From Candidatus Hydrogenedentota bacterium (GTDB taxonomy: Bacteria; Hydrogenedentota; Hydrogenedentia; Hydrogenedentales; SLHB01), in contig JAIBAQ010000020.1 in NCBI GenBank assembly GCA_019695095.1, positions 1-50,235 on the forward strand: 50,235 bases of DNA, written 5' to 3'. Position 1 is the stretch's first letter, and every line of letters starts with the position of its first letter. Under the pieces are notes generated by a model. The model was not told where the DNA came from and did no database searches. It was given only the letters and a program-made list of their open reading frames with translations. Both the position numbers and the translations under genes were made by a program. Shown here in pieces: positions 21,260-23,296 of the stretch.

Positions 21260-22018
21260 TTATCTCAACGATGCCGCTTCTTCCAGAACACGGTCATACC
21301 AATCGATCTCAACCGCTTCGATGCCGCGAAGAATCATCGGGAACTCCGATGTCTTCAATTGCTGAAACAGGGCCGCGCCACGCCGCAGAATCTCATGGCC
21401 TAGCGTGAACCCCGCCAATTCCTCTTCATCATACAGATCCGGGCGCGATTCCATCAGCGCGCGTGAATTGTCCATGATCTCGACGGTAGCCGTCAGCAAC
21501 TTCACGTTGGACAAACACGTGAACAACTTCAGCACTTCCGTCCGGAATCGAATGACTTCTTCCTTGGGCACGTGCGCGATCATCTGAATCATCGTTTCGC
21601 GTTTGGCCACGTCGCGTGGCGTTAAGCCGCGCGCGTGCGCATACTTCAGCATCTCGCCCTCGAGGCGGCGCGTTTCGAGATACGCTTCCAGCGAATGCGC
21701 GCCCGCCTTTACCGCCGATGGGAACATCACGCCAAGCTTCCATACCGTCTTCACCGCCATCATCATCAGCGGGGTCAGGCGCCGTGGCGACCGAATGACG
21801 ACTCCCATGTGATCGAACGCCGCATCCAGTTTCATGCGCTGTTGCGACTCGGGATAAATGCACTCCAGAAAGTAATCGCGCAACAGCTCAATCTTACGCT
21901 CGGAGACGGCTCGAAACTCGCCGAATCGCCGTACATTCTCAAGCAGATACCGCCCGCGCAATTGCTCGCGGTATCCATCGATTACGGCGTATTTTAGAGT
22001 CGCATTATCGGCAGGCAT
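21260..22018 (-). CDS. Conserved-looking helical protein of unknown function
   Basis: I do not recognise this 252-residue protein. It has no signal peptide and is nearly all helix by composition. Charged amphipathic stretches (KIELLRDYFLECIYPESQQR, LEGEMLKYAHARGLTPRDVA) flank a moderately hydrophobic segment (LTPLMMMAVKTVWKLGVMFP, about 81-100) that could be peripheral to the membrane. It starts at ATG 22018 and lies 28 bases upstream of the DUF6807 gene on the same strand, so the two could share a transcript. Codon use matches the neighbours. Confidence 0.55.
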   Translation of the reverse strand: MPADNATLKYAVIDGYREQLRGRYLLENVRRFGEFRAVSERKIELLRDYFLECIYPESQQRMKLDAAFDHMGVVIRSPRRLTPLMMMAVKTVWKLGVMFPSAVKAGAHSLEAYLETRRLEGEMLKYAHARGLTPRDVAKRETMIQMIAHVPKEEVIRFRTEVLKLFTCLSNVKLLTATVEIMDNSRALMESRPDLYDEEELAGFTLGHEILRRGAALFQQLKTSEFPMILRGIEAVEIDWYDRVLEEAASLR

Positions 22019-22182
22019 GGCAACTTCTGCTTTGCAGGCGCTGGAACACGAGCTTGCGCCAACTCCATCACTTTAGCACAGCTTGCCCGCCCGGGGCGAT
22101 TGTCGCAATCTGCGGTTATGATGACATCGCGAGGTGCTCGCCACGCGCACTGTGTCCGTATTGGATTAATGAGTTATCTATA

Positions 22183-22211
22183 TTGACAATCAGAGTGCTT
22201 GGTGGTATAAA
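22183..22211 (+). promoter_or_regulatory. Near-consensus sigma-70 promoter of a small RNA gene
   Basis: A perfect TTGACA (22183-22188), a 17-base spacer and TATAAA (22206-22211). The expected start is at the first G of GGG at 22218. It is one of the two best promoter matches in the window, and no open reading frame with a credible start follows. Confidence 0.8.
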
Positions 22212-22217
22212 TCTTTT

Positions 22218-22286
22218 GGGTCCGAAACTTGGCTCGTCTGAGTAGTAGGACTCACCCGGGAGCTGAAGAAGCTCCCCCTTTCTTTT
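22218..22286 (+). ncRNA. Predicted structured small RNA (~69 nt), unknown family
   Basis: Between a near-consensus promoter and an intrinsic terminator the transcript folds as one long stem-loop. GGGU (22218-22221) pairs with ACCC (22254-22257), CC (22222-22223) with GG (22248-22249), ACU (22227-22229) with AGU (22244-22246) and GCUC (22232-22235) with GAGU (22240-22243), around a GUCU loop. Small internal loops separate these helices. The terminator hairpin follows directly. No ATG occurs in it. It matches no RNA family I recognise. Its 3' end meets the stop codon of the convergent DUF3800 gene, so it could be antisense to that mRNA's tail or independent. Confidence 0.6.
22258..22286 (+). 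terminator. Intrinsic terminator of the small RNA
   Basis: GGGAGCT (22258-22264) pairs with AGCTCCC (22270-22276) around a five-base loop, then CCTTTCTTTT. The T run exists only in the plus direction, so it serves the small RNA and not the convergent gene. Confidence 0.75.
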
Positions 22287-23055
22287 ATAGACGGACTACT
22301 CCAAAGGGAACGGATGGTGAAGCAAACCTGCAAAGAATTGGCTGCAGGCGAGTGAAGTACTTTGCGCCTCCCGTCTTCCGCATGTATCGGCAGGGATTCT
22401 GGAATTGGTAGAGTACGTAAGCAGCCACGTCACATGCTTGAATGAAGTATGAGTGTTTGGAGTCTCGCATAATCGGATCTTCGATCAGATTCACAATCTG
22501 AAGATTCCTTGATCCCGTTCCGTAATGTTGTTGATTGGGTACAGGGTTGTACCGCCTCATCCGTCTCAGAAGGTTGCGTAACTTCAGTTCATCGGTATGG
22601 TCACAAACGACGATGCCCTTTTCCGGAAGGTTGCGACTGCCTCGGAAGTTGCCGGCTGTAATGGTATTCTCGAATCGTTGAATGAGCGCTTCCCATCCGT
22701 GCGTAAACACATCATAGCCAGGCGATTTGCGGTTCTTGTCGACTATCACGTTGATGATGTCAATCTTCGGAATCCGCGCGAGTTCGTCGCAGACGGCGCG
22801 AACTATGGCGAGGCGGTCGTTTCTTGCTATCAACGCATACGACTTTGGGGGCTTGTTAATCATGCGAGCGGCATGGATCTCATCACGAAGCCGCAGCCCG
22901 TACTGAACTCTCAATCGACGTCGAAGGGCTACAAAGAGGGCCAACGTTGACTGCCAGTCTTGTTCATGCACGATGAGCCCAGATAGAGCGAAGCAAGTAC
23001 TTGGAGATCCCACCAGACCCGGATCGCCGCTTTCATCTACGTACATTATGTACAT
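22285..23055 (-). CDS. DUF3800 protein
   Basis: The 256-residue protein (from ATG 23055) opens with the family hallmark MYIMYVDESGDPG. It has further conserved acidic spots in LRDEIHAARM, IVVCDHTDELKLRNLLRR and SYFIQACDVAAYVLYQF. DUF3800 proteins are scattered among bacteria and phages; the spaced acidic residues suggest a metal-dependent, RNase H-like fold, but no function is proven. Base composition is visibly less GC-rich than in neighbouring genes, consistent with recent acquisition. A longer start at 23127 adds a stretch with no family similarity. Its stop codon lies in the T run of the small-RNA terminator and it has no good terminator of its own. Confidence 0.82.
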   Translation of the reverse strand: MYIMYVDESGDPGLVGSPSTCFALSGLIVHEQDWQSTLALFVALRRRLRVQYGLRLRDEIHAARMINKPPKSYALIARNDRLAIVRAVCDELARIPKIDIINVIVDKNRKSPGYDVFTHGWEALIQRFENTITAGNFRGSRNLPEKGIVVCDHTDELKLRNLLRRMRRYNPVPNQQHYGTGSRNLQIVNLIEDPIMRDSKHSYFIQACDVAAYVLYQFQNPCRYMRKTGGAKYFTRLQPILCRFASPSVPFGVVRL

Positions 23056-23296
23056 ATCCGACCCCCCGAAGATAGGAGTACCATTGTACCATGATGGCCA
23101 TGCCGATTGTGCGCGCGTGAAGGACATGGAGCTTGGCAGCCTGTTTCCGGTGACTCACAAGTTACAGCCGCAGATTGGGCGGGCTTCGGCGCATCTAGAG
23201 AGAATGTGGTACACTTCAGCGGGGTAAAGGGGCGAATCAAAACGTAAGGGCTGTGGCCCGTCTTCTTCGGCGACGGATAATGGAGGTCCGGGGAAG

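Follow-up and report, generated by a model that had tools for sequence, protein, structure and literature searches.

Organisation of the locus

The window, i.e. the whole stretch of 50,235 nucleotides analysed here (contig JAIBAQ010000020.1 of a Candidatus Hydrogenedentota bacterium), carries a compact transcription unit on its plus strand, placed between a gene for a 252-aa protein (21260-22018, minus strand) and a DUF3800 gene (22285-23055, minus strand). The unit opens with a -35 box TTGACA (22183-22188) and, after a spacer of 17 nt, a -10 box TATAAA (22206-22211), which together show 11 of 12 matches to the sigma-70 consensus; the expected start of the RNA is near G22218. This promoter is missing from the listing of a promoter scan, as the scan demands a -10 box that ends in T. 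The small RNA, designated as a type (a) DUF3800-associated RNA on the basis of a leave-one-out covariance model and covariation, is about 67-69 nt long (22218-22286, plus strand) and ends in an intrinsic terminator (22258-22286), which is made up of a 7-bp stem, GGGAGCU-GAAGA-AGCUCCC (22258-22276), and a T-rich tail, CCTTTCTTTT (22277-22286), with the T-run on the plus strand only. The T-run overlaps the stop codon of the DUF3800 gene (22285-22287).

A first-pass annotation made from the sequence had described a TTGACA-17-TATAAA promoter, a plus-only intrinsic terminator and an RNA 3' end lying on the stop codon of the convergent DUF3800 gene, and all these elements were found in place when the coordinates were checked. 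Its suggestion that such a unit is hard to obtain by chance also held good: the window has a single case of a promoter with at least 11/12 matches followed by a terminator within 20-90 nt, and 40 Markov shuffles gave none. At the equivalent position of the homologous RNAs described below, the promoters have a mean of 9.0/12 matches versus 6.3 in shuffled sequence. The RNA is probably transcribed from this sigma-70 promoter of its own, and the element is almost certainly a non-coding RNA gene in its own right, bounded by a promoter and a terminator of its own, and specifies a real and conserved RNA. A riboswitch or leader was ruled out, since the next plus-strand gene lies 1 kb away, beyond DUF3800, and so was antisense control of DUF3800, since the overlap of the RNA with the coding sequence is confined to the stop codon. 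The genome of the window has one copy of the type (a) RNA.

The 252-aa protein has no match in Pfam or NCBIfam. Its orthologues in three relatives (L012-L014; 57-64% identity) adjoin a DUF6807 gene, and a search of these three genomes with the window protein found no DUF3800. A locus DUF3800-RNA-DUF6807 shared with G001 was considered and ruled out, the DUF6807 proteins being paralogues of only 23% identity.

The DUF3800 protein

The protein has 256 aa if it starts at MYIMYVDESGD and 280 aa if it starts at the first ATG (23127), and belongs to the Pfam family PF12686 (E=5e-16; 60.2 bits, above the cut-off of 21). An AlphaFold2 model with a mean pLDDT of 93.7 and a pTM of 0.91 was compared with the PDB using Foldseek; the best matches were RNases HII (E down to 1e-4, probability 1.0), with further matches to RNase H2/H3 and, weakly, to Argonautes, and a search of the PDB by sequence yielded none. 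TM-scores of about 0.4 and identities of 11-14% with RNase HII denote kinship of the fold only, the two proteins having in common a D-E pair on the first strand. DUF3800 is accordingly modelled as an RNase H fold protein with RNase HII as its nearest relative. The residues D7, E59, H61, D152, Q206 and D209 are invariant across 31 sequences, and E8 is nearly so. DUF3800 has been described as a nuclease of the RNase H fold that occurs with some Cas12 and type VI-F loci and was earlier tied to putative ncRNAs (PMC10910872; PMC12669027). PADLOC placed the DUF3800 of the window convincingly in no defence family.

Distribution of the RNA beside DUF3800 genes

A BLASTN search with the RNA against the genome of the window and 59 relatives, a check proposed in the first-pass annotation, gave chance-level matches only (best 0.015 per genome); the best match (L004) was rejected as a homologue because the 3' strand of P1, described below, is not kept. 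Homologues were reached only through DUF3800 or through a covariance model. The DNA behind the DUF3800 genes of relatives in the same phylum has the same kind of unit as the window, on the strand opposite to the gene, in L032 and L033 and, less strictly, in L034; the RNA of the last looks similar, falls below the model threshold and was left out of the counts. Of the 68 genomes of the phylum, 17 had DUF3800 in a Pfam search; behind most of these genes lies a structured RNA with a promoter and a terminator, the RNAs being of several types.

Scans of the genome and viral collections with the single protein gave no confirmed match. A DUF3800 alignment query, with which 84,980 genomes were scanned, led to 37 loci; the same query was without success on viral contigs, unlike on genomes, and a BLASTN search with the consensus RNA against plasmid and phage collections found none. 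The type (a) RNA lies behind DUF3800 in Deltaproteobacteria, Gammaproteobacteria (including Rhodanobacter glycinis), Acidobacteria, Planctomycetota and Hydrogenedentota. The unit adjoins the gene at 16 loci including the window (among them L063-L073, L076, L083, L084 and L097) and additionally in the phage contig L122, the chromosomal loci having been reached mostly through the protein. The protein-independent tests are therefore the search of the phylum with the covariance model and the pattern scans of viral contigs, both presented below. In the window and the homologous loci, the terminator lies at or adjoining the DUF3800 stop codon. In two Planctomycetota (L072 and L073), the DUF3800-RNA module is situated directly behind a topoisomerase VI B gene, and in L072 it stands between the B and A genes.

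Conserved secondary structure

The conserved structure comprises two helices. In P1, GGGUCC (22218-22223) pairs with GGACUC (22248-22253), the 3' strand being supported by alignment and covariation; in P2, CUUGG (22228-22232) pairs with CUGAG (22238-22242) around the loop CUCGU (22233-22237). An internal loop separates them, with GAAA (22224-22227) opposite UAGUA (22243-22247). The long stem-loop and terminator proposed earlier are present; the four stacked helices proposed with them are replaced by P1, P2, the internal loop and a separate terminator. In P2, the conserved pairing is not that of the energy minimum computed from the RNA of the window alone.

A gap-free alignment of 15 RNAs across P1 and P2 has 98.8% of its cells paired, with two-sided changes in all five P2 pairs. 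Extension to 22 RNAs gave two-sided compensatory changes in 8 of 11 pairs (five of five in P2, three of six in P1) and 97.9% of cells paired, in an alignment that was fitted to the model, whereas that of 15 RNAs was not; the covariation score was reached in none of 500 shuffles, and slid partners fail. P1 and P2 are recovered by RNAalifold without a prior structure. A covariance model (R2) built without the window matched the window at 22216-22285 with E=2.5e-9, the E-values of such models being rough, and found otherwise nothing notable. Both conservation and covariation, the test named in the first-pass annotation, were hence observed.

The possibility that promoter, hairpin and terminator came together by accident can draw on the folding energy, which for the RNA 22213-22290 is -27.7 kcal/mol with a z of merely -2.26; it is equalled in 7 of 200 shuffles and by itself constitutes weak evidence. 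Such an accident is refuted by the covariation and conservation, together with the leave-one-out match and the promoter-terminator shuffles given above, and its probability is negligible.

The GA and GUA of the internal loop are nearly invariant in the alignment (consensus GA(A/C)-(A)GUA), and the loop may resemble a G-bulged (loop E-like) motif. An interpretation of GAAA and CUGAGUAG as parts of a hammerhead-like element was dropped, the intervening strands being too short for the helices needed.

RNA types and their association with DUF3800 clades

The RNA region of the window has no match in Rfam up to E=10, in agreement with the initial impression that no known RNA family was matched, and the Rfam DUF3800 families have none in five other type (a) loci up to E=1. 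The Rfam families DUF3800-I (RF02969), -VI (RF02915), -VII (RF02967) and -IX (RF02968) are likewise structured RNAs beside a DUF3800 gene. Rfam recovered DUF3800-VII behind the gene in the sister genomes L039, L054 and L057, and in L036 it recovered DUF3800-VI on the upstream side, so that known types are detected at these loci. In its three loci, DUF3800-VII takes the same convergent, stand-alone position ending at the DUF3800 stop as the RNA of the window; it forms a junction fold, whereas the RNA of the window is a single two-helix hairpin with a separate terminator, and despite the shared geometry the latter was not filed under DUF3800-VII because it does not match the RF02967 model. Eleven DUF3800-associated RNA families were reportedly published in a 2017 paper. 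The type (a) RNA has the traits of DUF3800-associated RNAs, namely adjacency to the gene across genomes and a covarying secondary structure, and appears, from these comparisons of sequence and structure, to be a family new relative to the Rfam models. The literature searched yielded no published function for RNAs beside DUF3800 genes.

When mapped onto a tree of 52 DUF3800 proteins, 13 RNA groups, assigned by eye from the RNA sequence before the tree was built and not blind to the locus, require 12 changes, which is the minimum, against 33.7 in shuffles. The RNAs are co-inherited with the protein clade by clade: every type assigned is confined to one DUF3800 clade, and type (a) corresponds to a single clade (95% SH-aLRT) whose hosts span phyla and include one phage. 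Such tracking is predicted for a co-inherited protein-RNA pair and speaks against a mere local terminator. The RNA is thus very probably a dedicated partner of the DUF3800 protein; the convergent position noted at the outset stands, and the gene is in all likelihood more than a mere neighbour.

Other RNA types were also observed behind DUF3800. A second family unrecognised by Rfam occurs in Bacillota, Latescibacterota, Bacteroidota and Actinomycetes (L085-L094, L096; viral L134-L145); this Bacillota-type RNA reads GAACCAC-UGAAA-hairpin-CGUAG-GUGGUG, with P1 doubling as the terminator, and is solo in phages too. A third type, found in Bacteroidota and one spirochaete (L074, L075, L077-L082), is exemplified by GUCGACUUGGU...AUCGGGCCGCAA followed by a terminator and exceeds the gathering score of no Rfam family. 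At least four more convergent types lie behind Hydrogenedentota DUF3800 genes (L042-L045, L047-L050, L053, L058, L062), each on its own protein clade, and gave no match to the Rfam DUF3800 families up to E=1 in the scanned loci (L045 being outside the scan).

Solo copies in chromosomes and phages

A search of the 68 Hydrogenedentota genomes with the covariance model gave nine strong matches, of which three lie beside a type (a) DUF3800, all three belonging to the training set of the model, and six do not. Chromosomal contigs with a solo type (a) RNA are L101 and L104-L107. The solo RNA of L104 has HEPN and nucleotidyltransferase genes as neighbours, and that of L105 the NYN gene of the PADLOC candidate HEC-09, while at L106/L112 a tandem of one type (d) and two type (a) RNAs adjoins an Eco57I-like restriction-modification gene; in L106 (450-1750; G043:C113), the tandem is on one strand and is without DUF3800. 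Most genes next to type (a) loci on chromosomes are not defence genes. Most solo members have in common a compensatory A-U pair within P1, which implies that the solo copies are kept and are not decaying.

Two RNA patterns, neither of which constrained P2, were run against viral contigs. All five P2 pairs were present in 11 of the 18 matches, where 0.0074 would be expected per match at even base composition, and ten matches passed the covariance model. Nine of the ten RNA-positive contigs are without a detectable DUF3800, the viral contigs being often short or partial and some maybe mis-binned. The remaining phage contig (L122), found by the RNA pattern and not by the protein, has a type (a) RNA that ends on the DUF3800 stop, with a terminase gene adjacent. 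Solo RNAs of L117, L124 and L127 lie near terminase, portal or anti-repressor genes, and that of L130 (5220-5376) lies directly behind a tRNA-Met gene, with which it is possibly co-transcribed. In the viral contig L125 (480-580), a Bacillota-like RNA is followed directly by a type (a) RNA. The Bacillota type itself was found in 12 viral contigs, three of them with DUF3800 (two locally identical), and several of the others are beside endolysin, head, exonuclease or integrase genes.

These copies bear on two further explanations. The unit might act in cis only, as a promoter-terminator block that keeps transcripts from entering or leaving the DUF3800 gene, with the hairpin protecting a short RNA. 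The placement of the terminator exactly at or adjoining the stop codon, in the window and in the homologous loci, agrees with such a role; however, P1, P2 and the internal-loop sequence are conserved beyond what a terminator needs, and the solo copies retain the fold, including the shared A-U pair, where there is no DUF3800, which makes a purely local function very improbable. Alternatively, DUF3800 and its RNA could form a mobile element of their own, an RNase H-fold recombinase with its RNA, of which the solo RNAs would be remnants. The patchy spread across phyla, the compactness of the unit and a perfect 10-bp inverted repeat flanking it (22106-22115 and 23168-23177) are in keeping with this. 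About one such repeat pair per 1.4 kb is, however, estimated to arise by chance, so that the repeats were rejected as element ends; moreover, the genome of the window has a single RNA copy, the solo RNAs retain their fold without decay, and the two Planctomycetota have one insertion site in common, behind the topoisomerase VI B gene. A mobile element is consequently regarded as very improbable.

Probable function

The best reading, favoured by us somewhat above an even chance, is that DUF3800 and the RNA form a ribonucleoprotein in which the RNA controls the nuclease and that the solo phage copies are mimics of this RNA. The RNA would be transcribed from its own sigma-70 promoter toward the DUF3800 gene, ending at the stop codon of the latter, and RNA and protein would travel together across phyla, as a two-gene module of about 1 kb. 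The RNA would bind DUF3800 most likely via the hairpin formed by P1, the internal loop and P2, and the bound RNA would set the nuclease activity of the protein, an antitoxin-like restraint being the favoured direction. We infer the binding, the control of nuclease activity and its direction alike. Phages with the RNA only would use it as a mimic against a host-encoded DUF3800 and would gain from a proteinless RNA by having the host nuclease neutralised or misloaded, as with pseudo-ToxI and the RNA anti-CRISPRs (Racrs).

Pseudo-ToxI is a documented phage RNA mimic acting on ToxIN (PMC3475682). ToxIN and other type III toxin-antitoxin systems resemble the DUF3800 module in pairing an RNA with a nuclease-like protein and in having RNA mimics carried by phages (PMC3475682). 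Type III antitoxins, however, consist of tandem repeats and are located upstream of, and co-transcribed with, the toxin, whereas the RNA of the window is a single unit on the opposite strand with its own promoter, and the predicted RNase H fold of DUF3800 is unlike that of type III toxins. Racrs are phage RNAs acting on CRISPR effectors (PMC10651486); like the solo type (a) RNAs, they are solitary and phage-borne with the cognate protein in the host, but they mimic CRISPR repeats and not DUF3800 RNAs, so that the analogy extends to the solo copies only.

The RNA might instead be an activating cofactor or guide-like scaffold needed by the DUF3800 nuclease, in which case the phage RNAs would, like RNA anti-CRISPRs, be dead-end mimics. 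The RNase H fold, as in RNA-guided nucleases, the weak Argonaute matches and the occurrence of DUF3800 with Cas12a2-like effectors (PMC10910872) are compatible with this, and the solo phage copies fit a cofactor mimic as well as an antitoxin mimic. No variable guide segment was seen, however, the P2 loop having five bases, mostly starting with C, and the RNA ending in a terminator; an activating role is considered unlikely. The lack of any visible guide-like variable part tips the balance slightly towards an antitoxin-like RNA over a cofactor.

The restraining role of the RNA is, taken singly, held to have a little less than an even chance. The lack of tandem repeats and the convergent rather than co-transcribed arrangement would argue against an antitoxin. 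In a Legionella transposon screen of which the RNA was not a part, a DUF3800 gene scored essential (PMC7811196), an outcome more in line with a protective DUF3800 than with a toxic one and hard to square with a simple toxin; it is mainly for this reason that our confidence is moderate. Against the best reading stand also the solo RNAs in chromosomal contigs, the lack of a convincing PADLOC family, the mostly non-defence neighbours of the chromosomal type (a) loci and the short, partial or maybe mis-binned state of some viral contigs. It is also tentatively suggested that DUF3800 and its RNA constitute a widespread anti-phage ribonucleoprotein module of bacteria with one RNA type per clade, which phages may counter with solo mimics, some of them back to back with a second type.

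The present analysis adds at least two RNA families unrecognised by Rfam, i.e. type (a) and the type found in Bacillota and other phyla. RNA types that strictly match protein clades, an RNase H fold and the many solo copies in phages together lead to a concrete question, namely whether DUF3800 may be an RNA-controlled nuclease of which phages carry mimics of the controlling RNA.
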